From an uncultured Atopobiaceae bacterium (lineage in GTDB: Bacteria > Actinomycetota > Coriobacteriia > Coriobacteriales > Atopobiaceae), in contig CALUNW010000007.1 in NCBI GenBank assembly GCA_944322145.1, positions 1 through 64,000 of the forward strand: a stretch of 64,000 nt of DNA. The letters run 5' to 3'. Below, in pieces: positions 222 to 63,800 of the stretch (its first letter is position 1; each line of letters starts with the position of its first letter). Made by a program: the position numbers and the translations under genes. A model generated the notes under the pieces. That model was not told the DNA's origin, did no database searches, and saw nothing but the letters and a program-made list of their open reading frames with translations.

Positions 222-315
222 GGAGGTCCTTGTCCCTCCGCCCGCAGCTCTGCAGTGAGGCGAGCGTTCTTCTCGCCGAGCGAAGCTGTTTGAGGACGGA
301 GGGACAAGGACCTCC
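222..315. repeat. Inverted repeat between ygeX and ygeY
   Basis: Perfect 19-base arms at 222-240 and 297-315 (GGAGGTCCTTGTCCCTCCG and its complement) enclose a 56-base loop. The loop carries one copy of the window-wide oligomer in reverse orientation (266-274). The downstream arm ends 25 bases before the ygeY start. A long RNA hairpin here could separate ygeX from ygeY expression. No T-run follows, so a simple terminator is not evident. Confidence 0.75.
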
Positions 316-340
316 ACCCCCGAGAGTGAGGAGCACTGAA

Positions 341-1747
341 ATGGCCAAGGAACTGAACTTCGACGAGATCAAGAGCGCGGCGGCGGCGTACGGCCCCGAC
401 ATGACCGCCTTCCTGCGCGCGATGATCTCCCACCCCTCCGAGTCCTGCGAGGAGGGCGAGGTCGTGGCCTGCATCAAGGCCGAGATGGAGAAGCTCGGCT
501 TTGACAAGGTCGAGGTCGACGGCCTGGGCAACGTCATCGGCTGGATGGGCGAGGGCGAGAAGATCATCGCCATCGACTCCCACATCGACACCGTGGGCAT
601 CGGCAACCGCGACAACTGGGAGGCCGACCCCTACGAGGGCTACGAGACCGACGACCTCATCTACGGCCGCGGCGGCTCCGACCAGGAGGGCGGCATGGCC
701 TCCGCCACGTACGCCGCGAAGATGATGAAGGACCTCGGCCTCATCCCCGAGGGCTACAAGATCATGGTCGTGGGCTCCGTCCAGGAGGAGGACTGCGACG
801 GCATGTGCTGGCAGTACATCGTCAACAAGTACTTCGACGGTCCCGAGGACGCCCGCGAGAAGATCGACTTTGTGATCTCCACCGAGCCCACCGACGGCGG
901 CATCTACCGCGGCCACCGCGGCCGCATGGAGATCCGCGTGGACGTCCACGGCGTCTCCTGCCACGGCTCCGCGCCCGACCGCGGAGACAACGCCATCTAC
1001 AAGATGGCCGACATCATCGCCGACGTCCGCGCCCTCAACAACAACGGCTGCGACGAGTCCACCGACATCAAGGGCCTCGTCAAGATGCTCGACCCCAAGT
1101 ACAACCCCGAGCACTTCGAGGACGCGCGCTTCCTGGGCCGCGGCACCTGCACCGTGTCGCAGATCTTCTACACCTCGCCGAGCCGCTGCGCCGTGGCCGA
1201 CTCCTGCGCGATCTCCATCGACCGCCGCATGACCGCCGGCGAGACCTGGGACTCCTGCCTCCAGGAGATCCGCGACCTGCCCGCCGTCAAGAAGTACGGC
1301 GACGACGTCAAGGTCTCCATGTACATGTACGACCGCCCGAGCTGGAAGGGCACCGTCTACGAGACCGAGGCCTACTTCCCCACGTGGATCAACGCCGAGA
1401 GCGCGGCCCACGTCCAGGCCCTCGTTGACGCGCACCACGCCCTCTACGGCGACGAGCGCATCGGCTGCGAGGCCTCCATGGACAAGCGCACCGGCCGCCC
1501 GCTCACGGACAAGTGGACCTTCTCGACCAACTGCGTCTCCATCCAGGGCCGCTACGGCATCCCGTGCGTGGGCTTTGGCCCCGGCGCCGAGAGCCAGGCG
1601 CACGCGCCCAACGAGGTCACCTACAAGCAGGACCTCGTGACCTGCGCCGCGCTCTACACCGCCGCGCTCAACCTCTACGACCCGTCCAAGAAGACCGGCG
1701 ACGTCACCGTCTTCCGCGCCGGCGCCACCGACAACGACATCCAGTAA
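341..1747 (+). CDS. ygeY: YgeY family M20-type metallo-hydrolase/deacetylase
   Basis: This 468-residue protein belongs to the ArgE/DapE/ACY1 M20 family. Metal-binding elements are visible: [10 protein letters not shown] near residue 80, [10 protein letters not shown] near 110, the QEED acidic pair near 150, TEPTDGG near 180, and a late AHAPNE histidine. The dimerisation-domain signature [12 protein letters not shown] also fits. The frame stays open back to 203, but ATG at 341 is preceded by GTGAGGAG and gives the family's usual N-terminus. YgeY is one of the gut-bacterial purine-degradation genes; its exact substrate cannot be read from sequence. It lies between ygeX and ygeW, as in E. coli. 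Confidence 0.92.
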
Positions 1748-4227: not shown

Positions 4228-4296
4228 TTTCTCGCGAGCGGCCGGGCGGCGGCGCGCGGCGGCGCGGCAACGGAGAAGGACGGGGGAGCGCGGGGC

Positions 4297-5241
4297 ATGA
4301 GACCCGACCTCAGGGCATATCTTCTGGGCGACGACGGGCGCCGGGTCTTTGGGCCCGGCCCCGTCGACCTGCTGGAGCGCGTGGGCGAGCTGGGGAGCCT
4401 GCGCGCCGCGGCCATCGACATGGGCATGGCCTACACCAAGGCCACGCGCCTCGTGCGCGACGCGGAGCTCGCCTTTGGCTTCCCGCTGACGGAGCGCACG
4501 GTCGGCGGCTCGGGCGGCGGCGGGTCGCGGCTCACCGCGCAGGCCCTCGACCTCATCGAGCGCTACCGCGCCTTCGAGCGCACGAGCCGCTGGGCCCTCG
4601 CGGCCGCCTACGAGACGTGCTTCTCGGGCTTTGCCGACGTGGCGCGCCTGGGCTGCGTGGTCATGGCGTCCGGGGAGGGGGCGCGCTTTGGCGGCGAGTT
4701 GGGCGAGAAGCTCGTGGCGCCGCTGGCCGGCACGCCCGTTCTCGAGCGCACGCTCGCCGCGCTGCCCGCCGACCTGCTCGACGTGGTGGTCGTGACGCGC
4801 TGGGACGCGGTCGAGGACCTGTGCGGGAGGCTCGGGGTGCGCTGCGTTCGCGCCGCCGGCCCGCGGAAGAGCGACACCATGCGTGCGGGCCTCGAGGCGC
4901 TGGGGCACCGGGCGGGCTGCCTGTTCGTGACCGGCGACCAGCCGCTTCTTACCGAGAAGAGCGTGCGCTCGCTGGTTGCGGCGCTCACGCACGAGCCCAC
5001 GGCGATCGTGCGCCTGGCGTGGCGCGGCCGCGGGGCCAACCCCGTGCTCTGGCCGTCGGACACGCTGGGCGCGCTCGCGCGGCTTGAGGGCGAGTCCGGG
5101 GGGCGCGTCCTTCTCGCCGGCCATGCCGAGCTGGAGGGCCGCGTGCGCCTGGTGGAGGCTACGGACGAGTGGGAGCTCGCGGACGTGGACACGCCCGATG
5201 ACCTGGCGCGCCTCGAGGACGCGCTAGCCGAGAGAAAGTGA
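4297..5241 (+). CDS. ModE-type HTH fused to MocA/MobA-like nucleotidyltransferase (YgfJ-like)
   Basis: A 314-residue two-domain protein. Residues about 1-95 match the ModE N-terminal winged helix: LLERVGELGSLRAAAIDMGM, then TKATRLVRDAE and GGSRLTAQALDLIERY. Residues about 115-310 form a MobA/MocA/YgfJ NTP-transferase domain with the P-loop-like MASGEGARFGG..EK, the metal-site GDQPLL, RGANPVLWP, and DVDTPDDL near the end. It probably edits or matures the molybdenum cofactor while binding DNA. The position between yqeA and hyuA matches ygfJ in related clusters. Its stop TGA lies in the palindrome at 5240. A ModE-like operator is seen at 13124. Confidence 0.85.
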   Translation: MRPDLRAYLLGDDGRRVFGPGPVDLLERVGELGSLRAAAIDMGMAYTKATRLVRDAELAFGFPLTERTVGGSGGGGSRLTAQALDLIERYRAFERTSRWALAAAYETCFSGFADVARLGCVVMASGEGARFGGELGEKLVAPLAGTPVLERTLAALPADLLDVVVVTRWDAVEDLCGRLGVRCVRAAGPRKSDTMRAGLEALGHRAGCLFVTGDQPLLTEKSVRSLVAALTHEPTAIVRLAWRGRGANPVLWPSDTLGALARLEGESGGRVLLAGHAELEGRVRLVEATDEWELADVDTPDDLARLEDALAERK

Positions 5242-6746: not shown

Positions 6747-6767
6747 ACCGAGACTAAGGAGAAGAAC

Positions 6768-7154
6768 ATGGCAATCGAGGCAATCGTCACCGACAAGGCG
6801 CCCGCGGCGCTCGGCCCCTACTCCGCGGCGGTGGCCGCTCCGGCCACCAAGGCGATCCACGTGTCCGGCCAGCTGCCGATCGACCCCGCCACCGGCGAGT
6901 TCGCCGGCGAGGACATCCAGGCCCAGACCCGTCAGAGCCTGACCAACATCAAGAACATCCTCGAGGCCGCCGGCGCCTCCATGGCCGACGTCGCCGAGGT
7001 CACCGTCCTTCTCGACGACATCAACGACTTCGCGGCCATGAACGAGGTCTACGGCGAGTTCTTCACGGCGCCGTACCCCAGCCGCGCCGCCTTCGAGGTG
7101 GCCGCGCTGCCCAAGGCCGCCAAGGTCGAGATCAAGGCCGTGGCCTACCTGTAG
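6768..7154 (+). CDS. ridA: RidA/YjgF/Rid family deaminase
   Basis: A 128-residue protein with the complete RidA fold signature: LGPYSAAV, HVSGQLPIDP, the ALGASM-like region AAGASMADV, and PSRAAFEVAALPK, whose arginine binds the substrate carboxylate. RidA proteins hydrolyse reactive enamine/imine intermediates. The upstream diaminopropionate lyase makes just such 2-aminoacrylate, so the gene fits as the last member of the cluster. ATG 6768 follows AAGGAGAAGAAC. Confidence 0.95.
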   Translation: MAIEAIVTDKAPAALGPYSAAVAAPATKAIHVSGQLPIDPATGEFAGEDIQAQTRQSLTNIKNILEAAGASMADVAEVTVLLDDINDFAAMNEVYGEFFTAPYPSRAAFEVAALPKAAKVEIKAVAYL

Positions 7155-7884: not shown

Positions 7885-8550
7885 CTAGGGCAGAGCAGCG
7901 AACCCGGCGCGGACGCTGCCCACAAACGCCGGCATGCCGAGAAGGACGGTGAGCTCGCGGGCCGCATCGGGCGCGACGTCGGCCTGGTTGACGAGTGCGA
8001 CGTCGGCGAGGGCCTCGGCGCGCGCGGCGCGCGCCACGAGCTTCGGCGTGGCGGCGTCCTCCGGCGCGCAGCCGGCGAGCTCGCAGAAGATCTCCGGGCG
8101 GTGCACGACGTCGCGGACGGGCCGTCCCATGCCGGACGCGCCGAGCACGAGAATCGTGCGTCCCGAGCACGCGGGGATGACGGGCTCCCAGGCGGCGTGC
8201 GCCTTGAGGGGGAGCCGGCGCGCGCCGTCGGCCTCCACGAGGACGTGGTCCGCGAGGGACGCCAGCGCGTCGATGCCCAGCTCGGGCGCCACGAGCTTGT
8301 CGTTCTTCTCTGCCCGCGATCCCACGCAGACCACGCGCGACGCCGCGAGCGCCTCCGCGACCGCGTCCGGGTCCGCTGACGTAACGAGCGGAACGCCCTC
8401 AAACGGCAGGATGTGCGTGGTCGTGGTGAGCACGACTGTGCCCGGCAGCTCGCGCGCGAGCGCCGCCAGCAGCGACGTCTTGCCGCCGCTGCCGATGACC
8501 GACGCCACGCCCGGGCCCACGCCCAGCGCCTCCGCAAGTGCCATACGCAT
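7885..8550 (-). CDS. yqeC: Selenium-dependent hydroxylase accessory protein YqeC
   Basis: A 221-residue P-loop protein with VIGSGGKTSLL near residue 20 and HVLVEADGARRLPLKAHA near 105, both typical of the YqeC family. YqeC and YqeB mark genomes carrying selenium-dependent molybdenum hydroxylases that use a labile, non-selenocysteine selenium. It probably uses ATP in selenium insertion into the molybdenum site. It is divergent from the dehydratase-like gene at 8669, with a palindromic site between them. Confidence 0.88.
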   Translation of the reverse strand: MRMALAEALGVGPGVASVIGSGGKTSLLAALARELPGTVVLTTTTHILPFEGVPLVTSADPDAVAEALAASRVVCVGSRAEKNDKLVAPELGIDALASLADHVLVEADGARRLPLKAHAAWEPVIPACSGRTILVLGASGMGRPVRDVVHRPEIFCELAGCAPEDAATPKLVARAARAEALADVALVNQADVAPDAARELTVLLGMPAFVGSVRAGFAALP

Positions 8551-9841: not shown

Positions 9842-10642
9842 GTGGGCGAGAAGGACGTGCGCTCCGGGCGCCTGGGCATAGGTGTTGACATCGGCTCCAC
9901 CGCGACCAAGGTTGCCGTGGTGGGCGCTGACGGCTCGCTCGTGCACGCCGAGCTCATGCCCACGGGCTTCTCCAGCGTGGACGCCGCCGAGCGTGCCCGC
10001 TCCGCCCTCGATGCGTGGAAAGGGGACGGGCACTTCTGCACGCTCGACGCGCGGGTGGTGGCCACAGGCTACGGCCGCGTTGCCGTGCCGTATGCCGACA
10101 AGGTCGTGACCGAGATCACGTGCCACGGGCGCGGGGCCGCGCGGCTCTTTGGCTCGGAGGGCACCGTGATCGACGTGGGTGGCCAGGATACCAAGGTCAT
10201 CCGCCTGCGCGGCGGTCGCGTGTTTAAGTTTGTGATGAACGACAAGTGCGCGGCGGGCACGGGCCGCTTCCTGGAGATCATGGCGGACCGGCTGGGCGTG
10301 GGACACGACGAGCTGGCCGCGCTCGCACGCGCCGGCGAGCCCACGCAGATCACCAGCATGTGCACGGTCTTCGCGGAGAGCGAGGTCATTAGCCTCGTGG
10401 GCCGCGGGGAGCCGCGGGCCAACATCGCCCGCGGCGTGATCGAGAGCGTCGTGGGACGCGTGGCCACGCTCGCCGCCACGGCCGGCGGCACGGCGCCGTA
10501 CTATCTCACGGGCGGCCTCTGCGACAACGAGTACGTGGTGGAGCTGTTGGGCGAGCGGCTTGGCACGCCCGTGGAGACGTGCCCGGAGGCGCGCTATGCC
10601 GGGGCGCTGGGCGCGGCGCTCATGGCGTTGGAGCTGGAGTAG
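9842..10642 (+). CDS. BadF/BcrA/HgdC-type activator ATPase (YjiL-like)
   Basis: A 266-residue actin-fold ATPase with GIGVDIGSTATKV near residue 12 and IDVGGQDTKVI near 110. The two cysteines that share the inter-subunit [4Fe-4S] cluster are in NDKCAAGTGRF near 130 and SMCTVFAESEV near 168. A TGGLCDNE loop is near 220. It passes one electron at low potential to the preceding dehydratase-like protein at the cost of ATP. The start is GTG 9842. The first codons (GEKD) are made by a copy of the window-wide oligomer. Confidence 0.9.
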   Translation: MGEKDVRSGRLGIGVDIGSTATKVAVVGADGSLVHAELMPTGFSSVDAAERARSALDAWKGDGHFCTLDARVVATGYGRVAVPYADKVVTEITCHGRGAARLFGSEGTVIDVGGQDTKVIRLRGGRVFKFVMNDKCAAGTGRFLEIMADRLGVGHDELAALARAGEPTQITSMCTVFAESEVISLVGRGEPRANIARGVIESVVGRVATLAATAGGTAPYYLTGGLCDNEYVVELLGERLGTPVETCPEARYAGALGAALMALELE

Positions 10643-10716
10643 GGTAGGAGCGAGGGCGCGGGCCGAGGTTCTTCTCGCCCGCTGAGCGAGGCCCGGACGG
10701 GCCGAGAGGAGACGAC

Positions 10717-11367
10717 ATGGCAGACATGGTGCTCACGGTCGACGCACGCGGGGACGCGTGCCCGATCCCGGTGGTGAAGACGCTGAAGGCGCTCGGGGCG
10801 CTGGCGGGCCCGGGCTCGGTCGAGACGCTTGTGGACAACGAGATCGCGGTGGCAAACCTCACGCGCATGGGAGAGGGCAAGGGCTGCGCGGTCGCGACCG
10901 AGCGCCTGGGCGAGAGGGAGTGGCGCGTGACCGTGACGGCCTCGGCGGCGCTCGCGGTGAGCGATGCGGAGGCCGAGTCGGCGACGTGCGAGGTGCCGGT
11001 GGCGGGCGCGCCGTCCTTCTCGCCCGCGCCGAAGAACGTGGTGGTGGCGATCACCTCCGAGTGCATGGGCACCGGCGACGACGTCCTGGGTCGCAAGCTC
11101 ATGGGCAGCTTCGTCTACTCGCTCACGCAGCTCGACGAGCTGCCCGCGACCGTGCTGCTCTACAACGGCGGCGCGCACCTCAGCTGCGAGGGGTCGGCGG
11201 CGCTCGAGGACCTGCGCGGCCTTGCGGCCTCCGGCGTGGAGGTGCTCACCTGCGGGACCTGCCTCGACCACTACGGCATCGCGGACACGCTGGCCGTGGG
11301 CGAGGTCACCAACATGTACGTGATCGCGCAGCGGCTCACCGGCGCGAGCCTCGTGGTGCGGCCGTAG
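10717..11367 (+). CDS. yedF: Selenium metabolism protein YedF (TusA domain plus DsrE-like domain)
   Basis: A 216-residue two-domain protein. The N-terminus is TusA-like with the carrier cysteine in GDACPIPV (Cys15). After a linker (SFSPAPKN) the C-terminal half is DsrE-like with TSECMGTGDD and CGTCLDHYGI. The family is restricted to selenium-using bacteria and is thought to carry activated selenium or sulfur. It sits upstream of the DUF3343 carrier and the cysteine desulfurase. ATG 10717 follows CGAGAGGAG. Confidence 0.92.
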   Translation: MADMVLTVDARGDACPIPVVKTLKALGALAGPGSVETLVDNEIAVANLTRMGEGKGCAVATERLGEREWRVTVTASAALAVSDAEAESATCEVPVAGAPSFSPAPKNVVVAITSECMGTGDDVLGRKLMGSFVYSLTQLDELPATVLLYNGGAHLSCEGSAALEDLRGLAASGVEVLTCGTCLDHYGIADTLAVGEVTNMYVIAQRLTGASLVVRP

Positions 11368-11673: not shown

Positions 11674-11697
11674 ATTTGCGAGAAGGACGTGGGGACG

Positions 11698-12846: not shown

Positions 12847-12886
12847 GGTCCTTCTCGTCCATGGCAGGGCGTGGTCTGCGTAGAAT

Positions 12887-47713: not shown

Positions 47714-47726
47714 GTTGGGGGGCATC

Positions 47727-49840: not shown

Positions 49841-49977
49841 GGCGAATCCAATCTTGTTTGAAGGGCTGTTAGGGCTGAAGGGGTTAGGGGCGGTCCGGGA
49901 GAAGACGGTAGAGCGTGCTGCCCCCGGACCGCGGAAATGGGGGCTCTATTCGAGCGCGCCGTCGCACGTGCAGGGAT

Positions 49978-51852: not shown

Positions 51853-51966
51853 GGATCCTCCGTTCACATGGCAGGTTGTTCCGCAGATGTCAATAGCCAG
51901 CTGAAAACAGGTGTCTGCGGTGGGCGGCGGCTGCATGACGGGCCTGTTGCCCGGATGCGATCCCGT

Positions 51967-52006
51967 AATGAGCACGTGCCCATAACTACAATGAGCACGT
52001 TAACAT
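51967..52006. promoter_or_regulatory. Two LacI-type operator copies before lacE
   Basis: AATGAGCACGTGCCCAT (51967-51983) and AATGAGCACGTTAACAT (51990-52006) share AATGAGCACGT, with a central CG step typical of LacI-family sites. They lie between the divergent lacE and regulator genes. A perfect palindromic copy precedes lacF at 53658. Confidence 0.75.
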
Positions 52007-52146
52007 ACGGCATGCGAGATCGACCGAGCCGCCGTGAGGCGGCCTGTGAAGGGCGTGAAATCGTCCGTGAGCGGCGTTGGCCGCTCGGCGGCGATGATGA
52101 TAGAGTGGGCCAGTGCATCTTGAACAAGTCGAGGGGGGGTGCCCGA

Positions 52147-53193
52147 GTGGGGCGGTCGGTAGCAGGAGAGACGGGTGCGGCGGCGGGCCGGCGCGGAACC
52201 CGCGCGGTGTCGATGGCGGACGTCGCGCGCTTGGCGGGCGTCTCGCGCCAGACGGTCTCGCGCGTGGTGAACAATCAGGCGTGCGTCGTCGAGGAGACAC
52301 GCAAGCGCGTCGAGGACGCCATGGATGAGCTCGGCTTCTACCCAAGCTTCGCCGGCAGGTCCCTGCGCGGCGGGAAGTACGGCTGCATAGGCCTGTGCAT
52401 GTTCGACATCACCCGCGCCGGCAACGTGGCGACTCTCGACGGCATCGTCTCCGCGGCGCGCGATTGCGGCTACGCGGTGACGCTCGTCGAGTTCGACGAG
52501 GGAGGGCCGGTGCGCCTTCGCAACGTCGCGCGCCGCCTGGCGGAGCTTCCCGTTGACGGCATGATCTTCAACACCAACCGCGCGGTGGAGGACTTCGACG
52601 AGTTCAAGCCCGTGCCCGGCCTGCCCACGATCATCATCTCGATGAAGGAGCATCCTCGTTGCACGACGATAGACTCCGATCAGTACGGCTGCTCGCGCAT
52701 GGTCGTCGACTATCTGCGGGAGCGCGGCCATGCGCACATCAGGCACCTCGCCGGACCCGAGGGCTCGATCACGGCCGACTTCCGCCTGCGCGGCTGGGCC
52801 GACGCCCTCGACGCTGCCGGGCTTGAGCGGCTCGAGCCCCTGCGCGGCGATTGGACGGCGGACAGCGGTTATGAGCTTGGCGTCAAGCTTGCGCAGGACA
52901 AGGACATGACAGCGCTGTACGTCGGCAACGACCAGATGGCGATGGGGGCGATGACCGCCCTGAGGGCCCATGGGCGTCGGGTGCCCGAGGACGTGAGCGT
53001 CGTGGGTGTGGACGACTCCCTGCAAGGCGTGGTGCCGCACAACACGTTGACCACGGTTCGATTTGACCTGCGCGAGCGGGGAAAGAGGACGTTCGACCAC
53101 TTCTTCGCCCAGATGTCGGGGGAGGAGCGCGTCGAGGCGGTGCGTCTTCCGGGTGCAATAGTCGAGCGCGCCACGGTCGCGGTGAGACCGTAG
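52147..53193 (+). CDS. LacI-family transcriptional regulator
   Basis: About 348 residues. The HTH (MADVARLAGVSRQTVSRVVN) is near residue 23, the hinge GRSLRGGKYGCIGL near 70, and a periplasmic-binding-like effector domain follows (VDGMIFNTNR, YVGNDQMAMGAM, VSVVGVDDSL). GTG 52147 after GAGGGGGGGTG gives the best start; ATG 52213 would begin at the HTH. The three ATGAGCACGT sites next to lacE and lacF are the natural targets. Confidence 0.88.
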   Translation: MGRSVAGETGAAAGRRGTRAVSMADVARLAGVSRQTVSRVVNNQACVVEETRKRVEDAMDELGFYPSFAGRSLRGGKYGCIGLCMFDITRAGNVATLDGIVSAARDCGYAVTLVEFDEGGPVRLRNVARRLAELPVDGMIFNTNRAVEDFDEFKPVPGLPTIIISMKEHPRCTTIDSDQYGCSRMVVDYLRERGHAHIRHLAGPEGSITADFRLRGWADALDAAGLERLEPLRGDWTADSGYELGVKLAQDKDMTALYVGNDQMAMGAMTALRAHGRRVPEDVSVVGVDDSLQGVVPHNTLTTVRFDLRERGKRTFDHFFAQMSGEERVEAVRLPGAIVERATVAVRP

Positions 53194-53302
53194 CGCGCTC
53201 GGACTCGCATACCCTGGGGCGATGCTCGGAGTGTTTTGATTCGCCGCGAGCCCAGGGTGAGCGTGTGTGACCGTGCCGGGGCGATAGGACCTTGGCGCCC
53301 GC

Positions 53303-53641
53303 CTAGGCGAGCTTCGCCTCGAGCGAGGCGATTCGCTCATAGGCGTCTATGGTGAAGCGGGTCTGCTTCTCGAGCATCATGGTGGTCATGAGGGTGTCCT
53401 GGGCGTGGACCATGATGAAGGTGACGTCCATTTCGCAGCCGCCCGCCTCTTGGGAAAGCAGCCGGGTTTGGACATTGTGGGCGTCGATGAGCGCCTGCTT
53501 CGCCGAGGCGTGGAGTTCGCGCGCCCCGGCGATGTCACCGGAGCTGGCCTTCTCGCATGCGGTGAGCAGGTCGGTCTGGGCGTCCCCCGCGTAAGCGATG
53601 ATTTCAAAACCGATCATCGAGATTTCTTCTTTAGATGCCAC
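53303..53641 (-). CDS. lacF: Lactose-type PTS EIIA component
   Basis: A 112-residue three-helix EIIA(Lac/Cel). The phospho-histidine is His79 in FIMVHAQDTLMT, and AGDAQTDLLTACEKA near residue 18 is the usual first helix. It passes phosphate from HPr to the EIIB domain of LacE. It stands alone on the bottom strand with its own operator 17 bases upstream. Confidence 0.93.
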   Translation of the reverse strand: MASKEEISMIGFEIIAYAGDAQTDLLTACEKASSGDIAGARELHASAKQALIDAHNVQTRLLSQEAGGCEMDVTFIMVHAQDTLMTTMMLEKQTRFTIDAYERIASLEAKLA

Positions 53642-53657
53642 GAGGCTCCTCCTTTCT

Positions 53658-53677
53658 AAATGAGCACGTGCTCATTT
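53658..53677. promoter_or_regulatory. Perfect LacI-type operator before lacF
   Basis: AAATGAGCAC and GTGCTCATTT form a perfect 20-base palindrome with a central CG. It matches the half-sites at 51967 and 51990. Confidence 0.82.
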
Positions 53678-53947
53678 TGGTGGATATAAAAAATGCGTAG
53701 AGCATCCGGGCACAACGCAGCCTAGCATAGCAACAAAAGTAAACACCTTGCTATACGCATGGAGATGGATAGATGGTATGAATAGGCCGGTAAACGGTGG
53801 ATAGTGCAAGATTCGAACGAATATCCTCGAAGATTACGTGAGTTCGAAATAGTTCTTGCATGATTGAAAGTGTTTGATTATGTTGAATAATGTGAATAGG
53901 CACAATGACGCGCAACGTGAGCGTCATGGGAAAAGGAGGAGGGCAAC
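53678..53947 (+). promoter_or_regulatory. AT-rich lacA leader/promoter region
   Basis: With the operator above this makes a 306-base gap without genes. It is AT-rich compared with its surroundings, holds TTCGAACGAA (a short palindrome near 53815) and TTGATTATGTTGAATAA-type repeats near 53875, and ends in the strong ribosome site AAAAGGAGG before lacA. Confidence 0.4.
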
Positions 53948-54376
53948 ATGAGGGTTGTCATCGGTTCTGACGCGGCTGGCATGCCGCTCAAGGAACTCGT
54001 CAAGGAGACGCTGATAGAGGACGGCCACGAGGTCGTGGACCTGTCCGAGACCCCTGCCGCGGACTTCGTGGACTCCGCCTGCGCGGTCGCCGCGGACCTG
54101 CTTGAGAACGAGGGTTCCCAGGGTCTTTGCTTCGACGAGTACGGCGTGGGCAGCTACCTCGCCGCCACCCGCGTGAAGGGCATGGTTGCCGCCAACATCT
54201 CCGACGAGCGCAGCGCCTACATGACCCGCGAGCACAACAACGCCCGCATGGTCTGCATGGGCTCCGGCGTCGTCGGCCCCGAGGTCGCCAAGAAGATCGC
54301 CCGTGAGTTCCTGAAGGCCGACTACGCCGCCGGCCGTCATCAGATCCGCGTCGACATGCTCAACAAGATGGCCTAA
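53948..54376 (+). CDS. lacA: Galactose-6-phosphate isomerase, LacA subunit
   Basis: A 142-residue RpiB/LacAB-family protein with VVIGSDAAGMPLKELVKETL at the start, GLCFDEYGVGS near residue 60 in place of the catalytic loop of LacB, and EHNNARMVCMGSGVVGPEVA near 95. With LacB it converts galactose-6-phosphate to tagatose-6-phosphate. A strong ribosome site precedes ATG 53948, and lacB follows 12 bases on. Confidence 0.92.
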   Translation: MRVVIGSDAAGMPLKELVKETLIEDGHEVVDLSETPAADFVDSACAVAADLLENEGSQGLCFDEYGVGSYLAATRVKGMVAANISDERSAYMTREHNNARMVCMGSGVVGPEVAKKIAREFLKADYAAGRHQIRVDMLNKMA

Positions 54377-54388
54377 GGGGGACAAGAA

Positions 54389-54916
54389 ATGACCAAGAAG
54401 ATCGTCGCCCTCGGCTGCGACCACATCGTCACCGACGAGAAGACCTACCTGCACGACCGCCTCGAGGAGGCCGGCTACGAGGTGCTGGACTGCGGCACGT
54501 TCAGCCACACCCGCACCCACTACCCCATCTACGGCAAGGCCGTGGGCGAGGCCGTGGCCTCCGGCGAGGCCGACCTGGGCGTCGTGCTCTGCGGCACCGG
54601 CATCGGCATCACCAACTCGGTGAACAAGGTTCCCGGCGCCCGCTGCGCCCTGGTCCGTGACATGACGAGCGCCCTGTACGCCCGCCGCGAGCTCAACGCC
54701 AACGTCGTCGGCTTCGGCGGCAAGATCACCGGTGAGTTCCTCATGGCCGATATCATGCTCGCCTTCCTCGAGGCCGAGTACGAGTCCACGCCCGAGCGTG
54801 ACGCCCTGGTGGCCAAGATCGACGCCGTCAACAAGGCCGACGCCGAGGCTCAGGCCGATCCGCACTTCTTCGATGAGTTCATCGAGAAGTGGGATCGCGG
54901 CGGCTATCACGACTAG
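54389..54916 (+). CDS. lacB: Galactose-6-phosphate isomerase, LacB subunit
   Basis: A 175-residue partner of LacA. It has [12 protein letters not shown] at the start, [20 protein letters not shown] near residue 68 (the catalytic cysteine loop), and a longer C-terminus ending [11 protein letters not shown]. It completes the entry of lactose-derived galactose into the tagatose pathway. The later genes lacC and lacD are not in the window. Confidence 0.93.
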
Positions 54917-54952
54917 TGCGGGCTTGCGTCCTGTGGCATAGCACCCCCTCAT

Positions 54953-54983
54953 CAGACGGGCCCGGGACTCCCGGGCCCGTCTG
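54953..54983 (+). terminator. Strong hairpin after lacB
   Basis: CAGACGGGCCCGGGA and TCCCGGGCCCGTCTG are near-perfect arms around C. Flanking GCATAGC/GCTATGC extend the pairing. It is 37 bases after the lacB stop. No T-run follows. Confidence 0.7.
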
Positions 54984-55116
54984 CGCTATGCGGCGCGGGT
55001 CGCTCGAACTCACCGGCGCCCTGCGGTACATGGTGCCGCACGCAGCTGACACGGGGCGTGTCTGCCGGCTCCGCGGGTATACTGAGCCTAACCGCCGCCG
55101 AGGTGAGGGGGATACC

Positions 55117-56688
55117 GTGGCACGAGAGCTCGTCAACCGCTATCCGGTGGGCGTTCAGTCGTTCGACGACATTCGCCGCCGCGACCTCGTCTACGTTGAC
55201 AAGACCGCCTACGTCTGGGACCTCGCCCACCAGGGCGGCAAGGCGTTCTTCCTCTCTCGGCCCCGCCGGTTTGGCAAGTCGCTTCTGCTCTCGACCATGC
55301 AGGCCTACTTCGAGGGGCGGCGGGAGCTCTTCGACGGTCTTGCCATCGAACGGCTGGAGACGGAGTGGGAGACGAGCCCTGTTATTCGGCTTGACATGAG
55401 CACGGTCAAGGCGACGAGCGTCGAGGGGCTTGAGGCACAGATTGACGACCTTCTCCAGAGGGTCGAGGAGGCGGTCTCGAGAGGCGATCGCCTTGCGGGG
55501 ACCTTCGGCGGGCGTCTCGCCGCCCTCATCCGCCATGCCGCGGCAGACAGGCCGGCGAGCGTCGTCGTCCTGGTTGACGAGTACGACGCGCCCCTGCTCA
55601 ACGTCATCGATGACGAGGTTCTTCTCGCCCGGTTCCGCCAGGTCATGCGGGAGCTCTACGCTCCGCTCAAGTCCTGCGACGAGCACCTGCGCTTCGTCTT
55701 CCTCGCAGGCATCACCAAGTTCTCCCAGCTCTCCATCTTCAGCGAGCTCAACAACCTGAGCAACATCTCGATGGAGCCTCGCTACGCCGGCATCTGCGGG
55801 ATCACGGAGGACGAGCTGCGCGGGCAGCTGGCGCCCGACGTGGCGGCGCTTGCGAACCGTCTCGGCATCGGTGCGGAAGAGACGTTCGACCGGCTCAAGG
55901 CCTATTACGACGGCTATCACTTCTGCGGCGACTCTCCCGACGTCTACAACCCGTTCAGCCTTGTCAGCGCCTTCGCCCGGGAGCGGATTGGGTCGTACTG
56001 GTTTGCCTCCGGGACGCCCTCCTCGCTCCTGAGGCTCGTCTCGGCGAGGGGCTGGCAGATCGTCGACTTGGAGGGGCGGCAGGCGCTGGAGACGAGCTTC
56101 GACGTTCCCACCGAGTCCGTGGACACGCCTCTCCCCATGCTCTACCAGTCTGGCTACCTCACCATCAAGGGGTACGATCCCGAGGCCAGCGTCTATACGC
56201 TGGGAATCCCCAACACCGAGGTGAGCCGCGGGCTCGCGGAGGGCCTGGTGCGCCTTTCTGGTCCCGGGGCCTTCGACGAGCACAGCACCTTTCTCATCAA
56301 GCTTGCGAGCGACCTGCGCGAGGGTAACCTCGAGTCAGCGCTGGGGCGCATCCGCGCGTATCTGGCGGGAATCCCGTACCACCTGGGAAGCCGCGACGAG
56401 CGGGGCTTCCAGACCAAGTTCTACCTCATCCTCGACCTTCTGGGCATCCAAATCGAAACCGAGTTCAGAACGGCGACGGGACACGTCGACGCCGTGGTGC
56501 GCTCGCGCGGCAACGTCTACGTCTTCGAGTTCAAGTACGACCGCCCCGCCACCGAGGCGCTCGCGCAGATCGACGACAAGGGGTATCTGGTCCCCTTCTC
56601 TGCCGGCGAGGGTCGCTTGCTCAAGGTGGGCGTGAGCTTCTCGGGCGAGACGCAGACCATCGGCGAGTGGGTGATCGCGGAGGGGTAG
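55117..56688 (+). CDS. AAA-ATPase-like protein with C-terminal PD-(D/E)XK domain
   Basis: A 523-residue protein of the AAA-ATPase_like/PDDEXK_9 family. Walker A FLSRPRRFGKSLLLSTM is near residue 50, Walker B VVLVDEYDAPLL near 158, and FVFLAGITKFSQLS near 195. The nuclease-like end has ETEFRTATGHVDAVVR and VYVFEFKYDRPA. These proteins are abundant in gut and oral bacteria; the function is unknown. The start is GTG 55117 after GAGGTGAGGGGG, since no nearer ATG exists. Window-wide oligomers reappear here (55618). Confidence 0.88.
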   Translation: MARELVNRYPVGVQSFDDIRRRDLVYVDKTAYVWDLAHQGGKAFFLSRPRRFGKSLLLSTMQAYFEGRRELFDGLAIERLETEWETSPVIRLDMSTVKATSVEGLEAQIDDLLQRVEEAVSRGDRLAGTFGGRLAALIRHAAADRPASVVVLVDEYDAPLLNVIDDEVLLARFRQVMRELYAPLKSCDEHLRFVFLAGITKFSQLSIFSELNNLSNISMEPRYAGICGITEDELRGQLAPDVAALANRLGIGAEETFDRLKAYYDGYHFCGDSPDVYNPFSLVSAFARERIGSYWFASGTPSSLLRLVSARGWQIVDLEGRQALETSFDVPTESVDTPLPMLYQSGYLTIKGYDPEASVYTLGIPNTEVSRGLAEGLVRLSGPGAFDEHSTFLIKLASDLREGNLESALGRIRAYLAGIPYHLGSRDERGFQTKFYLILDLLGIQIETEFRTATGHVDAVVRSRGNVYVFEFKYDRPATEALAQIDDKGYLVPFSAGEGRLLKVGVSFSGETQTIGEWVIAEG

Positions 56689-56916
56689 CGGTCGCACGTG
56701 CCGCGAGCTGGCTTGCCGCGGCCCGTCGTACTTCTCGAGCTTCTTGTCGTCCTTCTCGCCGCCGCGCGTTTATTGTGTTCAGGTTACGCGCCGGCATCTG
56801 CCCGCACGTGCGTAGTACAATCGGCCCCGCTGCGTCGCTCGCCGTCTACGCGCGTCGCGGCCATCCGGCAGTCGCCGCCCGTACGACACGGGGCGGCAGG
56901 ACGAGAAAGGCGACAT

Positions 56917-58686
56917 ATGGATTCGCACACCATGCATACCCACACCTGCGGCGAGCTGCGCCGCGAGCACATCGGCCAGACGGTCACGCTGACCGGATGG
57001 GTCTGGCACCGCCGCGACCACGGCGGCCTCATCTTTGTTGACCTGCGCGACCGCGACGGCGTGACGCAGGTCTCCTTTGACCCCGAGCACTCCGGCGGCG
57101 AGGCCTTCCACGCCGCCGAGACCATCCGCTCCGAGTGGCCCATCAAGGTCACCGGCGTCGTGCGCGAGCGTCCCGAGGGCATGGAGAACCCCAAGCTCGC
57201 CACCGGCGAGATCGAGGTCCTCATCGACCAGATCGTGGTCCTCAACTCCTCCAAGACGCCGCCCTTCCAGATCGAGGACCACGTGGACACCTCCGAGGAC
57301 GTGCGCCTGCGCTACCGCTACCTCGACCTGCGCCGTCCCCGCATGATGGCCAACCTCAAGCTGCGCTCCGACTTCACCTTCGCGCTGCGCGAGGCGCTGC
57401 ACAACCGCGACTTCATGGAGGTCGAGACGCCGGCCCTGTTCAAGTCCACGCCCGAGGGCGCGCGCGACTTCCTCGTGCCGTCCCGCACCCAGCCGGGCCA
57501 CTTCTACGCCCTGCCGCAGTCCCCGCAGCTCCTGAAGCAGCTGCTCATGGTCGGCGGCGTCGAGCGCTACTACCAGGTCGCCAAGTGCTTCCGCGACGAG
57601 GACCTGCGCGCCGACCGCCAGCCCGAGTTCACGCAGGTGGACATCGAGATGAGCTTCGTCGAGCAGGACGACGTCATGGGCGCGCTCGAGGACGTGCTGG
57701 CCGACGCCTTCGGCCGCATGGGCGTCGAGATGCCCACGCCGCTGCGCCGCCTGGACTACTGGGACGCGATGGACACCTACGGCTCCGACAAGCCCGACAC
57801 CCGCTTTGGCATGGAGCTCCACGACGTGACGTCGATCTTCTCGACCTCCAAGTTCAAGCTCTTTGCGAGCGCGGCGGCCACCGACGGCCAGTACGTCAAG
57901 GCCATCAACGCCAAGGGTGCCGGCGCCTGGCCGCGCGCGCAGATCGACAAGCTCGCGAACGTCGCCGCCGACTTTGGCGCCAAGGGCCTGGCCTGGATCG
58001 CCTTCCGAGAGGACGGCTCCGTCAACAGCCCTATCGTCAAGTTCTTCTCGGACGAGGAGATGGCGGCGCTGCGCGAGGAGATGGGCGTCGAGCTGGGCGA
58101 CCTCGTGATGTTTGCCGTGGCCGACCGCAAGGGCGCCGACGAGATCCTCGGCGGCATGCGCCTGCACATGGCGAACGCCCTCGACGTGCCGCGCGAGGGC
58201 CACGACTTCCTCTGGGTCGTGAACTTCCCGCTGTTCCACTGGGACGACGAGGCCAAGCGCTACGAGGCCGAGCACCAGCCCTTCACCCTGCCGACCGAGC
58301 TTGACGTCGAGAAGATCAAGGCGGACCCCCTGTCCATCGGATCGGCCACCTACGACTTCGTCATGGACGGCTGCGAGGCGGGCGGCGGCGGCATGCGCAT
58401 CCACAACTCGCAGATGCAGCTCGACATGCTCGAGCTCATGGGCTTCTCGATCGAGGGCGCCCGCGAGCAGTTCGGCTTCCTGATGGACGCCCTCGAGTTC
58501 GGCGCGCCCCCGATGGGCGGCTTCGCGCTCGGCCTCGACCGCGTGTGCATGCTGCTGGCCGGCGAGGACTCCATCCGCGACGTCATGGCGTTCCCCAAGA
58601 CGTCCTCGGGCTCTGACCTCATGTCCGACGCCCCGAGCGAGGTCTCGGGCAAGCAGCTCAAGGAAGTCTCCCTCCGCCTTCTGTAA
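56917..58686 (+). CDS. aspS: Aspartyl-tRNA synthetase
   Basis: A 589-residue class II synthetase of the bacterial type. It has an OB anticodon domain (TVTLTGWVWHRRDHGGLIFV), motif 2 YYQVAKCFRDEDLRADRQPE near 215, the GAD insertion (about 290-400), and motif 3 GFALGLDRVCMLLAGEDSIR near 535. It charges tRNA-Asp; whether it also misacylates tRNA-Asn cannot be told without the rest of the genome. ATG 56917 follows GAGAAAGGCG. A TACAAT box lies at 56815. Confidence 0.96.
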   Translation: MDSHTMHTHTCGELRREHIGQTVTLTGWVWHRRDHGGLIFVDLRDRDGVTQVSFDPEHSGGEAFHAAETIRSEWPIKVTGVVRERPEGMENPKLATGEIEVLIDQIVVLNSSKTPPFQIEDHVDTSEDVRLRYRYLDLRRPRMMANLKLRSDFTFALREALHNRDFMEVETPALFKSTPEGARDFLVPSRTQPGHFYALPQSPQLLKQLLMVGGVERYYQVAKCFRDEDLRADRQPEFTQVDIEMSFVEQDDVMGALEDVLADAFGRMGVEMPTPLRRLDYWDAMDTYGSDKPDTRFGMELHDVTSIFSTSKFKLFASAAATDGQYVKAINAKGAGAWPRAQIDKLANVAADFGAKGLAWIAFREDGSVNSPIVKFFSDEEMAALREEMGVELGDLVMFAVADRKGADEILGGMRLHMANALDVPREGHDFLWVVNFPLFHWDDEAKRYEAEHQPFTLPTELDVEKIKADPLSIGSATYDFVMDGCEAGGGGMRIHNSQMQLDMLELMGFSIEGAREQFGFLMDALEFGAPPMGGFALGLDRVCMLLAGEDSIRDVMAFPKTSSGSDLMSDAPSEVSGKQLKEVSLRLL

Positions 58687-58758
58687 CGCCGGCGACAAGA
58701 ACGTCCGCTCCGGGCCCGTCCCCGCGTGACCGCGGCGGCGGGCCCGTTCTTCTCGGCT

Positions 58759-58958
58759 TGCACAAAGATGCCGACTTGGCAGAGCAAACGCCGTCTGAAT
58801 GCACAAAGATGCCAACTTGGCACGGCGAGAAAAACGCGAGCTGGGGTTCTTCTCGCCCCCGTGCACAAAGGAGCCGACTTGGCATGCGAATCTCTGCCCA
58901 GTCGGCTCCTTTGTGCGCCGCAGGGCTCCGATCCCTGCCAAGTCAGTATCTTTGTGCA
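58759..58958. repeat. Cluster of TGCACAAAG..CTTGGCA repeats in both orientations
   Basis: Copies begin at 58759, 58800 and 58862 (TGCACAAAGATGCCGACTTG type) and end, inverted, at 58916 and 58958 (AGTCGGCTCCTTTGTGC, AAGTCAGTATCTTTGTGCA). The third and fourth form one 55-base palindrome. Two oligomer copies (58746, 58846) sit among them. The 337-base gap between aspS and the aquaporin also has CGGGCCCG arms near 58709-58744, a likely aspS terminator. No gene is seen. Confidence 0.82.
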
Positions 58959-59023
58959 GCCAAAGAAAGCGACGCCCGCCGGGGGAGCGGGCGCCGCGAG
59001 GTGGGGCGGTATGTCGAGAAGAA

Positions 59024-59737
59024 CTACTTCTCGGAGCCGTAGAAGCTCTTGAAGCCCTTGAAGATGACCGCGGCGAGGGCGGCGCCGGCGAGCGGGGCGA
59101 AGATGAAGACCCAGACCTGCTCGAGGGCGACGGTGTTGCCGGTCACGGCCATGGCGAGCGCGGGGCCGAAGCTGCGGGCGGGGTTCACGGAGGTGCCCGT
59201 CAGGGGGATGCCCATGATGTGCACGAAGGTGAGGCAGAGGCCGATCACGAGGCCGCCGAAGTGGCTGGTCTTGTTGTCGGCGGTCACGCCCAGGATGGTG
59301 AGCACGAAGACGCAGGTCAGGATGACCTCGACGACGAAGGCACCGATCATGGAGAGACCGGTCGTGGAGGCGTCGCCGAAGCCGTTGCAGCCGAGGCCGG
59401 TCTCGGCCACGCCGCCGAGGGCGCCGCACTGGGTCACGACGAGCAGCAGCGCGAAGCCGGCCACGATGGCGCCGACGAACTGGGCGATCCAGTAGCCGTA
59501 GAGCTCCTTGAGGGAGATGCGGCCGTCAACGTAGCAGCCGAAGGTCACGGCCGGGTTGATGTGGCAGCCCGAGACGTTGCCGATGACGAAGGCCATGGCG
59601 ACGATGGACAGGCCGAAGGCCAGCGCGATGCCCACGGTGCCCAGGGTGGCGCCGGCGATGCAGGCGCTGCCGCAGCCAAAGAACGTGAGCACGAAGGTGC
59701 CCAGGGCCTCAGCCAGGTACTTCTTGGTGGAATCCAA
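59024..59737 (-). CDS. aqpZ: Aquaporin, AqpZ-like
   Basis: A 237-residue MIP channel with six hydrophobic helices and both NPA loops (SGCHINPAVTFG near residue 60, TGTSVNPARSFGPA near 187). His in FVHIMGIPLTG, the Thr before SVNPAR, and the following Arg match the narrow selectivity filter of water channels rather than glycerol facilitators. An upstream segment FLGLSIVAMAF is also AqpZ-like. It is monocistronic. Confidence 0.92.
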   Translation of the reverse strand: MDSTKKYLAEALGTFVLTFFGCGSACIAGATLGTVGIALAFGLSIVAMAFVIGNVSGCHINPAVTFGCYVDGRISLKELYGYWIAQFVGAIVAGFALLLVVTQCGALGGVAETGLGCNGFGDASTTGLSMIGAFVVEVILTCVFVLTILGVTADNKTSHFGGLVIGLCLTFVHIMGIPLTGTSVNPARSFGPALAMAVTGNTVALEQVWVFIFAPLAGAALAAVIFKGFKSFYGSEK

Positions 59738-60820: not shown

Positions 60821-60831
60821 GGGGTCAGACG

Positions 60832-63800
60832 ATGCAGATGTCACGCAAGCTCAAGGTCAAGATCGCGGCCATCGTCATCGCCGCCGTCGCGAGCATCGTC
60901 GTCATGGGCGTGCTGCTCTCCGGCATGCAGGGCGAGCTCACGCGCGCCAACTACGACGCCGAGATGGGGGCGGAGGCCGAGCAGCTCTCCACCCTCCTCG
61001 CTGAGGCGGACGACGAGAACGCCCAGAACAAGGAGACCTACGACGCCATCTACCAGTCCAAGGCGCAGAGCATCTCCTTCATCGCGGCGAACGACGCCGG
61101 CTTCGAGGCCACCGACGCCAAGATGCGCGAGTACCAGGAGCTCCTCGAGGTCGACAACGTGCTCACGGTAAGTGTCGACGGCACCGTCCTCGCGCAGGCC
61201 GCCGAGACCCGTGCGGACTTCTCGGCCGCCCGCTTCAACTACCTGCGCGAGTCGCTCTCCACGGGCGAGCCCTCCCGCGCCGTCGAGATCAACCTGCCCG
61301 AACAGGAGTGGCGCACGCGCTACTACGCGGCGCGCATCGACGACGCCACCATGGTCGTCATCGAGCAGGACCCCTCCGAGCTCTATGACCTCATCGAGTC
61401 CACCGGCTCCACCGCGAGCGTCCTCAAGAACGTGCAGATCGGCCAGGACGGCTACGTCTTCTCCCTCTCTGCCCAGACCTACGTCATCGAGTACCACCCC
61501 GACGAGGCCCTCGTGGGCGCCGACGCCCTCGACGCCGGCATCGATGCCGGCGACCTCGAGGACGGCTTCACGGGTTGGATGACGCTGGCGGGCCAGCGCA
61601 TCTACGCTCGCGTCTGCCTGATCGGCGACACCTACTACGTCGAGGCCGTCCCTGCCGCCGACATGAACGCGTCGGGAGACCTCACCGTCGGCGTCATCCT
61701 CTTCGTCTTTGCGGTCGTGGCGGCCTCCGTGGCGCTCTACGGCATCTTCGTCCTGCGCGCGGACGAGCGCGACGGCCAGGACGGGGAGGATGAGCTGCGC
61801 ATCTCCAGCACGCTGCGCGTCAACCGCCGCATCGCGAGCCGCGCCGCGGTCCTCTCCGCCGTAGGGTTTCTCGCCGTGATCGTCATCTCCTTCTACATGC
61901 AGACGCTCTTTGCGCTGTCGTCCCAGTCGCTCACGCTCACCGAGCGCGTCGACCAGGTGGCCTCCACGATCGAGCGCAGCCAGGACCGTGCCGAGGAGCT
62001 GGAGGGCCAGTACAACGAGCGCTACCTCTCCAAGGCGCGCGTCGCCGCCTACGTGCTGGACCAGAACCCCGCGCTCGCCAACCGCGCCAAGCTCCAGGAG
62101 CTGGCCGACGCGCTGCAGATCCAGTACCTCTTCACCTTTGACATCAACGGCACGATGACGGCGACCAACTCCAACTTCACCAACTTCGTGCTGTCCGAGG
62201 ACCCCGAGGACCAGTCCTACGAGTTCCGCAAGCTCCTCCAAGGCGTCGACTCCGTCGTGCAGCCCGCCGGCCCCGACGAGGTCTCCGGCGAGATGCGCCA
62301 GTACATCGGCGTGACCACGCACGACGCCTCCGGCACCGTGAACGGCTTCGTCCAGCTCGGCATCCGTCCGACGCGCCTGGAGACCGTGCTCGAGAGCGTC
62401 CAGATCGATCACGTCCTCGACGGCGTCCAGGTGGGCGTCGACGGCTTCGCCTTCGCGGTGAACAAGTCCGACGGGACCTTCGCCTACTATCCCAACGAGA
62501 ACATGGTGGGAAAGCTGGCAACCGACTGCGGCATGACCGAGGCCCAGCTCAAGGACGGCTACAGCGACTACGTCACCATCAACGGCGAGCAGCTCTACGC
62601 CGCCTCCGCCGAGACGAGCGACTACTACGTCTTCGCCGCCGGCTCCGACGGGGCCCTCATGGCCGAGCGCGGCCCGCTGACGGCGGCGACGGGCGCCATC
62701 GCGCTCGTGTGCCTGGCGGTCCTCTTCTGCCTGATGGTCTTCGAGCCCTCCGCCACCGTGTCCCAGGCAGTCGAGAAGGGCGAGGACGCCGCGCAGGAGG
62801 ACGGGCGCCCGCGCATGGTCGACGTCACCGTGGGCGGCCGCACCATGAAAACCGTCAGCGCCGCGAGCCGCTGGTTCCGTCGCTCCTTCGACTGGAACGA
62901 CATGACGCCCGAGCAGAAGCTCGGCCGCGTCCTGCGCTGGTTCGTCGGCGCGGGCGTGATCCTGGTCTGCCTCGCCGTCGTCTTCAAGGACGCCATCTTC
63001 GAGAGGGGCTCGATCTTCGCCTACATCCTCGGCGGGTCCTGGCAGCACGGCCTCAACATCTTCGCGATCACCGCGTCGATCATGTTCGCGTGCCTGTTCC
63101 TCACCATCGCCGAGATCCTCCAGAAGGTCCTCATGCTGATCTCGCGCGTGGTCGAGGCCCGCGGCGTCACGATGTGCCGCCTCGCGTCGAGCATCGTGAA
63201 GTACGCGTCGGTGATCGGCATCCTGTACTGGTGCCTCGCCCTTCTCGGCGTGGACACGGCGACGTTGCTCGCCTCCGCCGGCCTACTCACCTTCGCCGTC
63301 TCCCTCGGCGCCAAGGACATCGTCACCGACATCATCTCCGGCCTCTTCATCATCTTCGAGGGCGAGTTCCGCGTCGGTGACATCATCCAGGTGAGCGGCC
63401 AGCGCGGCACCGTCATGGAGATCGGCGTGCGCACCACCAAGATTAACGACGGCTCCGGCAACGTCCTGGTGCTGCGCAACTCCAACATCTCCAACGTTGT
63501 CAACATGACCAAGGAGCACTCGTTCGCCGCCGTCGAGGTGGGCATCGAGTACGGCGAGAGCCTCGAGCGCGTCGAGAACGTCCTCGCCAAGGAGTTCCCC
63601 AACATCAAGCGTCGCCTGCCCGCCATCATCGACGGCCCGTTCTACAAGGGCGTCACGATGCTCGCGGACAACTCGGTCAACATCAAGATCGTGGCCGAGT
63701 GCGCCGAGAAGGACCGCAGTGGCCTCACCAACGACCTCAACCGCGAGATCAAGCTGCTCTTCGACAAGTACGACATCTCGATCCCGTATCCCCAGGTCGT

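Follow-up and report, generated by a model that had tools for sequence, protein, structure and literature searches.

DNA uptake tags are described for the Gram-negative families Pasteurellaceae and Neisseriaceae (PMC5031613, available part). Copy numbers given in the accessible parts of the respective papers are 1,471 for the uptake signal sequence (USS) of Haemophilus influenzae (Bakkali 2007, PMC1939737) as well as 2,426 and 5,918 for the DNA uptake sequences (DUS) of Neisseria wadsworthii and Kingella oralis (Frye 2013). The excerpts report that uptake sequences are unbiased in orientation, exceed expectation in non-coding DNA and form inverted repeats in only ~10% (Bakkali 2007, PMC1939737), and that genus-specific dialects surround a fixed core (Frye 2013). 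For transformation of Micrococcus luteus, tad genes are required, and beyond comEA/comEC this actinobacterium has no further recognisable competence genes (PMC4322843, available part). Here, we study the word GAGAAGRAC, which recurs throughout a stretch of 64,000 nucleotides (the window) from an uncultured Atopobiaceae bacterium (contig CALUNW010000007.1, positions 1 to 64,000). Judged from sequence, its extended form G-N-C-GAGAAG-R-A-C is likely the genus dialect of a DUS-like signal found in much of the Atopobiaceae (core CGAGAAG-NN-C).

Abundance and placement of the word

The genome of the organism comprises 2,402,356 bases in 25 contigs. GAGAAGRAC occurs 799 + 779 = 1,578 times on its two strands, compared to 24 + 27 = 51 occurrences of the reversed word, which served as control. 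That is, the word is the genome-wide signal that the original prediction, made from the window only, had supposed, and 1,578 copies per 2.40 Mb are within the range of published uptake sequences.

For close study, we used a sample of 824,722 of these bases (825 kb). It consists of the window, contig C1 in full and parts of C2 (240 kb), C3 (160 kb), C6 and C10 (20 kb each). Gene limits therein stem from a purpose-written gene caller and are approximate. The following statistics refer to this sample unless another scope is given. Based on a third-order Markov model, 33.7 copies of CGAGAAGRAC are expected while 506 are seen. For words with 0 to 4 mismatches, the respective excess is 15.0, 2.15, 1.18, 1.11 and 1.11, and for the reversed control word 1.32, 1.44, 1.31, 1.06 and 1.01. 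About 12 positions of the motif carry information, with a graded tolerance. The words are spread in a nearly Poisson-like manner (variance/mean 1.16 per 5 kb). A dispersed mobile repeat was rejected as source of the word, given that conservation is slight beyond ~12 bases. Both strands are used about equally (C1 106/111, C2 88/84, C3 50/44, window 26/27), and no heterogeneity is found over 22 bins of at most 40 kb (chi2 15.7, df 22, P = 0.83; origin and terminus of replication are unmapped).

Within the window, we counted 53 copies, 26 on the + and 27 on the - strand; 19 of them fall between genes, and those within genes comprise 19 sense and 15 antisense words. This agrees with the original prediction, which had put the number at about 50, split roughly evenly between strands and placed in genes as well as gaps; 10 of its 11 example coordinates are exact and the remaining one, 63,705, is one base off (63,706). 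On the other hand, its chance expectation of about one is too low because base composition was ignored: the third-order Markov model yields ~5.5 copies (0.7 within the island discussed below and 4.8 in the rest), which corresponds to a ~10-fold excess. The 12-mer GGCGAGAAGRAC covers just 25/53 window words, and G-N-C-GAGAAG-R-A-C-(G/C) is the better consensus.

From the 564 words of the sample, 212 are intergenic, 349 coding and 3 lie across a gene edge; given the approximate gene limits, this amounts to 1.78 words per kb between genes and 0.49 per kb within genes (3.6-fold). Compared to the control word, there are 209 vs. 2 intergenic copies. The density is 2.43 per kb in convergent, 1.79 in tandem and 1.44 in divergent gaps. 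Within genes, 155 antisense words are found vs. 20.7 under synonymous shuffling (7.5-fold), while the reversed control word is at its synonymous null (14 vs. 13.9). As a raw count, there are 17 inverted word pairs at most 60 bases apart, and 13 of these lie between genes. Terminator hairpins were rejected as main role, since at most 34/564 words are in such pairs.

No word was counted between 41,731 and 55,617, just as predicted from the window. The prediction had further equated this gap exactly with the stretch of lac and phosphotransferase system (PTS) genes, which is nearly the case: the stretch forms an insertion at about 43,681-56,756 that holds two words, one at 55,618 and one right on its margin at 56,749, compared to 13.1 predicted by the rest of the window (Poisson P = 2e-4). 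The insertion has no match longer than 200 bases in any of the 25 related loci. Of these, 23 are informative, i.e., they hold sequence matching the window (34.0-43.7 kb) upstream of the aspartyl-tRNA synthetase (AspRS), and two (L112, L113) are uninformative with less than 1 kb upstream. The nearest upstream match ends within ~2.2 kb of AspRS in the loci checked; in window coordinates, upstream matches are, e.g., at 35.8-37.3 kb (L106) or reach to 42.1 kb (L182, L119) and 43.7 kb (L118, L121). The lactose island is missing from 23/23 informative loci, and we therefore consider the lactose genes an insertion.

The word density also rises with G+C (rho 0.33, significant, 5-kb bins), i.e., the 3 bins below 58% hold 1.0 words per 5 kb on average and the 90 bins above 68% hold 3.9. 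On C1, a word gap of 13.7 kb starting at 79.8 kb falls into bins with a G+C of 54-55% and carries sulfotransferase-like and TPP-enzyme genes. This low-G+C stretch continues to ~115 kb, and genes of NTP-transferase/APH, AbiEii-like and S-layer type are found along it.

Conservation and dialects among relatives

The AspRS of the window is 98% identical to that of an uncultured Atopobiaceae metagenome-assembled genome and mostly 87-95% to those of Thermophilibacter or "Olsenella" strains. The organism is thus near Thermophilibacter/"Olsenella", where Thermophilibacter belongs to Atopobiaceae, Coriobacteriales, Actinomycetota. In our collection, genus g1 presumably corresponds to Thermophilibacter, family f1 to Atopobiaceae and family f10 to the Collinsella family.

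GAGAAGRAC was counted in 149 genomes of the order. Among the 10 genus genomes (own included), nine contain 992-1,626 copies and one, G128, contains 330; reversed controls range from 46 to 88. The original prediction had named enrichment across the genus together with depletion in islands as its check, and both are found. Several genera of the family show intermediate counts (e.g., 834 vs. 63 in G084 and 509 vs. 66 in G136). Outside the family, counts are mostly below 4x control, with 317 vs. 50 in G090 of f10. For CGAGAAGNNC, counted in 101 family genomes, the own genome shows 3,602 vs. 488 copies, and high numbers are observed in g12, g3, g4, g8, g85, g88 and in G155 of g84. Sense-coding copies are part of such whole-genome ratios and by themselves may account for ~2-fold (59 vs. 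29 in Collinsella/Enorma loci). GGCGAGAAGNNC was counted in 120 order genomes and reaches 978 vs. 39 in the own genome; outside the family, G090 has 477 vs. 23, G017 has 179 vs. 45 and others have at most 91. The 41-84 copies vs. 2-28 in the remaining f10 genomes may be a faint trace of the word.

Dialects were compared based on antisense and intergenic CGAGAAG sites, i.e., with sense copies removed and with no tree behind the grouping. In 11/12 Atopobiaceae sets, 71-89% of the sites show a C at +9 (88% with n=841 in the own genome; the smallest set has n=54). The flanks vary by genus: Thermophilibacter has R-A, g8 has GGG in front and R-R behind, g3 and g88 have GG in front, and g84 has A-C. 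In G128, a one-contig genome from the same genus, the core CGAGAAG-NN-C is still present (62 vs. 29 for the reversed word, 71% with C at +9); its dialect may differ, or its signal may be decaying. Within 80 kb of G090, the same core is found: 83% of the 54 antisense/intergenic sites carry the C at +9, compared to 19 reversed sites. The Collinsella/Enorma set shows no excess (42 vs. 50 reversed, C at +9 40%); it consists of 12 loci from Collinsella and a single one from Enorma, each covering the AspRS region (L127-L129, L149, L150, L152-L154, L157-L159, L162, L176). Three further genomes, with 60-80 kb each, stand outside the dialect comparison, and their CGAGAAGNNC vs. reversed counts are 53/9 (G092, family), 36/14 (G100, family) and 29/15 (G041, f10).

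Conservation was assessed on aligned Thermophilibacter-like loci with 80-92% identity, using ordered and thus non-independent pairs along with 80 scrambled control words. The short Thermophilibacter-like locus L175 was excluded here as well as from the dialect comparison. Antisense words are kept between species in 66% of cases (n=1,023) vs. 36% for scrambled words; for sense words, the values are 77% (n=1,129) and 49%, respectively. An unclassified count agrees (61.5% vs. 32.8% at 80-85% identity).

A probable uptake signal and its alternatives

On own contig C2, ComEA (SLBB and helix-hairpin-helix; TIGR00426 above cut-off) adjoins ComEC. Contig C6 carries a Tad/Flp cluster with an RcpC-like protein (below cut-off), a TadZ-like ATPase, TadA, two T2SSF proteins (TadB, TadC) and TadE (above cut-off). 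Therein, a Flp-like pilin of 65 aa was named from its sequence, with weak Pfam matches only, while a 670-aa TadG-like and a 144-aa TadF-like protein were named by position and N-terminus alone. For a receptor domain in the TadG-like protein, zero Pfam matches up to E = 1 were obtained. Within the family, DprA and ComEC are each found in 60/61 genomes and type-IV pilins (PF07963, N_methyl) in 8/61. A PilT-family ATPase (L207 9869-10930 on own contig C10; TIGR01420 above cut-off) may serve some other pilus as its retraction motor.

We lean towards the view that Atopobiaceae, i.e., Gram-positive gut bacteria and relatives thereof, selectively import DNA by means of a family-wide uptake word with genus dialects, which is read by the Tad/Flp pilus system and not by a type-IV pilus. 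The Tad pilus is the likely uptake machine. We infer the word's role in uptake, the Tad pilus as uptake pilus, and which protein would read the word. In this mechanism, a surface receptor, probably a Tad/Flp pilus component or ComEA, would prefer double-stranded DNA with the word; the pilus would deliver word-bearing DNA to ComEA and ComEC, and the entering strand would recombine with the chromosome. Incoming homologous DNA bearing the word would be favoured, such that word-creating point mutations would spread and word-destroying ones be repaired. Given such biased spread, the word would build up on either strand wherever coding permits, and new islands would be without it until amelioration.

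The word resembles a DNA uptake sequence in most sequence tests run; exceptions are the conservation of intergenic words, the missing ComP-type pilin and the inverted pairs, for which there is a raw count. Its abundance, the even use of both strands, the enrichment between and antisense to genes, the drop of its excess with mismatches, its depletion in islands and the dialects on a fixed core are direct observations, as are the genes. Several results weigh against an uptake function. Intergenic words are kept in 44% of cases (n=280) vs. 42% for scrambled words, i.e., without advantage. Type-IV pilins (PF07963) are in 0/4 genus genomes, and no ComP-type receptor was found there; known receptors are type-IV minor pilins, though an uptake word is not defined by them. 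CGAGAAGNNC is near control in g5, g6, g78 and g89 as well as in 3/5 g94 genomes, and the g2 set lacks an excess in the dialect comparison (54 vs. 50 reversed, C at +9 59%). From the 10 word-free 5-kb bins, 6 have ordinary G+C (0.64-0.70), and word density is not significantly correlated with codon typicality (rho 0.12, P = 0.14). Furthermore, titles within the open-licence literature revealed no report of competence in these bacteria. Finally, a Tad-locus protein and ComEC are each present in 115/120 order genomes, f10 included, though f10 is mostly without the word. Presence or absence of the machinery was rejected as predictor of the word, since the two are uncorrelated across order genomes. 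The machine is thus wider than the word, such that gene presence alone is no support for uptake. As for f10 itself, ComEC and the Tad-locus protein are kept; its named Collinsella/Enorma loci are without the word, yet the genus of G090 has it.

Among the alternatives, a Chi site of an AddAB-type recombinase, which switches the nuclease to recombination and would hence be core-rich and island-poor, is unlikely but ahead of the others. Such a system is available, as an AddAB-like pair (PF12705, PD-(D/E)XK) is encoded by two adjacent large frames at 196.7-201.3 kb of C1, which also counts against uptake (L011:1504-5334 was rejected as AddA, being DNA polymerase III alpha). Known Chi sites have 8 bases or fewer, compared to ~12 informative positions with graded tolerance here, and higher intergenic density is not known as a Chi trait, where our word is 3.6-fold denser between genes. 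In the accessible part of PMC8022716, Chi sites are enriched in the core genome and sparser in acquired DNA, traits which the word shares, but they are also polarised on the leading strand, while the word is unbiased in the contigs studied (origin and terminus unmapped). More doubtful still is a site of chromosome architecture or segregation with a dedicated binding protein, i.e., one similar to FtsK-orienting polar sequences (KOPS), matS or nucleoid-protein sites. The many dispersed copies and their near-Poisson spread would suit it. KOPS-like sites are polarised toward the terminus and matS-like sites are confined to one domain; over 825 kb of 2.40 Mb, we observe neither polarity nor domain confinement. 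Dialects that change by genus on a fixed core are, in turn, a property of uptake words (Frye 2013, available part). Strand-polarised sites (Chi, KOPS) were rejected, strand bias being absent in 825 kb of 2.40 Mb with origin and terminus unmapped. The original prediction had offered an uptake word, a recombination hotspot and an architecture site: the first fits best, while Chi- and KOPS-like sites fit poorly because both are strand-polarised and the word is not.

A self-marking motif of a modification-based defence (e.g., BREX- or restriction-like), kept abundant for self-recognition, is about as improbable as an architecture site, or slightly more so. The core is asymmetric and contains A, and the word is depleted in acquired DNA, which both would agree with such a role. 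However, defence-modification motifs are usually avoided rather than enriched, and a core that many genera share, with graded dialects around it, does not resemble a methylase site. The usage of codons and dipeptides (Glu-Lys-Asp/Asn, Val-Leu-Leu-Ala), which would make the word common without function, can practically be dismissed. It does apply to sense words: 188/349 coding words are sense GAG-AAG-RAC, and the synonymous null yields 171.5 of the 194 sense copies, which thus barely exceed it; this, too, speaks against an uptake signal. Sense copies are mostly accounted for by the peptides that they encode, but these peptides are over-represented in turn (EKD 117 vs. 53.4, EKN 75 vs. 33.0, GEKD 37 vs. 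4.6). As a cause of the word, codon usage is refuted by the intergenic (212/564) and antisense enrichment, the latter 7.5-fold with the reversed control at its null.

No uptake word is reported for Olsenella, Coriobacteriales or Actinomycetota in the open-licence literature, judged by title among the matches listed, which is in line with the original prediction, whose author knew of no such signal in this group. If an uptake function is true, uptake specificity would have arisen at least a third time, here in Actinomycetota, and would act as gene-flow barrier between genera. That is, self-recognition in transformation would evolve repeatedly, in this case with a different pilus. The family would provide a third test system, with many dialects, for the long-open question why such words accumulate. 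Moreover, these gut bacteria would be predicted to be naturally transformable, and tagging DNA would make them genetically tractable.

Window features and known systems

All words of the window are listed in the following table along with the word-poor insertion.

Features of the 64-kb window; word rows are based on the count of GAGAAGRAC on both strands
Feature	Position	Strand	Content
word GAGAAGAAC	266..274	-	
word GAGAAGGAC	4273..4281	+	
word GAGAAGGAC	5107..5115	-	
word GAGAAGAAC	6759..6767	+	
word GAGAAGGAC	7005..7013	-	
word GAGAAGGAC	7939..7947	+	
word GAGAAGAAC	8302..8310	-	
word GAGAAGGAC	9848..9856	+	
word GAGAAGAAC	10668..10676	-	
word GAGAAGGAC	11013..11021	-	
word GAGAAGGAC	11680..11688	+	
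word GAGAAGAAC	12487..12495	+	
word GAGAAGGAC	12848..12856	-	
word GAGAAGGAC	14241..14249	+	
word GAGAAGGAC	14424..14432	-	
word GAGAAGGAC	14829..14837	-	
word GAGAAGAAC	16110..16118	+	
word GAGAAGAAC	17019..17027	+	
word GAGAAGGAC	18121..18129	+	
word GAGAAGGAC	18364..18372	-	
word GAGAAGGAC	18487..18495	+	
word GAGAAGAAC	19082..19090	+	
word GAGAAGGAC	19963..19971	+	
word GAGAAGAAC	20348..20356	-	
word GAGAAGGAC	21819..21827	-	
word GAGAAGAAC	23623..23631	+	
word GAGAAGAAC	24332..24340	-	
word GAGAAGAAC	27877..27885	+	
word GAGAAGAAC	27995..28003	-	
word GAGAAGGAC	28094..28102	+	
word GAGAAGGAC	28476..28484	-	
word GAGAAGGAC	29568..29576	+	
word GAGAAGAAC	30094..30102	-	
word GAGAAGAAC	32254..32262	+	
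word GAGAAGAAC	33391..33399	-	
word GAGAAGAAC	35633..35641	-	
word GAGAAGGAC	35840..35848	-	
word GAGAAGAAC	35972..35980	-	
word GAGAAGGAC	36267..36275	+	
word GAGAAGGAC	37754..37762	+	
word GAGAAGAAC	37826..37834	+	
word GAGAAGAAC	37970..37978	+	
word GAGAAGGAC	38521..38529	+	
word GAGAAGGAC	39858..39866	-	
word GAGAAGAAC	40797..40805	-	
word GAGAAGGAC, last before gap	41722..41730	+	
word-poor insertion	43,681..56,756, ends approximate	.	DeoR x2, PTS EII-Sor, GH1 glycosidase, lactose/cellobiose PTS, LacI, LacAB, AAA-ATPase-like/PDDEXK_9
word GAGAAGAAC, inside insertion	55618..55626	-	
word GAGAAGGAC, insertion edge	56749..56757	-	
word GAGAAGAAC	58041..58049	-	
word GAGAAGAAC	58746..58754	-	
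word GAGAAGAAC	58846..58854	-	
word GAGAAGAAC	59016..59024	+	
word GAGAAGGAC	63706..63714	+	

The window contains other repeats as well. Inverted repeats of TGATTCAAAAGGGG and CCCCTTTTGAATCA, few bases apart, are located at 1,754-1,786, 1,799-1,831, 5,239-5,271, 6,692-6,728 and 11,642-11,674 and look like elements of the repetitive extragenic palindromic (REP) or bacterial interspersed mosaic element (BIME) type. CCTTTTGAATCA occurs 10 times in the window and 5, 4, 10 and 1 times in own C1, C2, C3 and C10, respectively. Another short repeat, GGGACAGTCCCC, has 6 window copies (16,937; 16,976; 18,458; 22,789; 22,828; 26,156) and is possibly related to the TGATTCAAAAGGGG/CCCCTTTTGAATCA hairpin repeat. 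Nested inverted repeats (AATTGGCAG..CTGCCAATT) are found at 42,225-42,312 directly ahead of the AAA_14/DUF4143 gene. In G090 (C1 1-80,000; L299-L302), a repeat unit that includes CCCCGCTGACG is present in ~44-50 copies, which very probably form an array of clustered regularly interspaced short palindromic repeats (CRISPR).

Compared to known systems, the word is similar to Chi sites in being over-represented in core DNA and sparser in acquired DNA, while it is unpolarised, longer and denser between genes. With the Pasteurellaceae USS it shares a similar copy number (1,471 in H. influenzae vs. 1,578 here), the unbiased orientation and an excess lowered by mismatches. Its sequence is a different one, and the predicted receptor there, a type-IV minor pilin according to the available part of PMC12616744, is missing here by Pfam N_methyl. 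The Flp/Tad-based transformation of M. luteus differs in its two tad clusters, compared to one found here plus a PilT-family ATPase; furthermore, PMC4322843 nowhere uses the term "uptake sequence". Both are from Actinomycetota, and in both comEA, comEC and tad genes are present with other recognisable competence pilus genes missing. For the Neisseriaceae DUS, the differences are the host, i.e., Actinomycetota here, the type-IV pilins (0/4 genus genomes) and the high numbers of inverted pairs there (Frye 2013, accessible part) vs. a raw count of 17 pairs here. On the other hand, both signals show thousands of copies, a non-coding excess, a similar length and dialects around a fixed core, which is CTG there and CGAGAAG-NN-C here.

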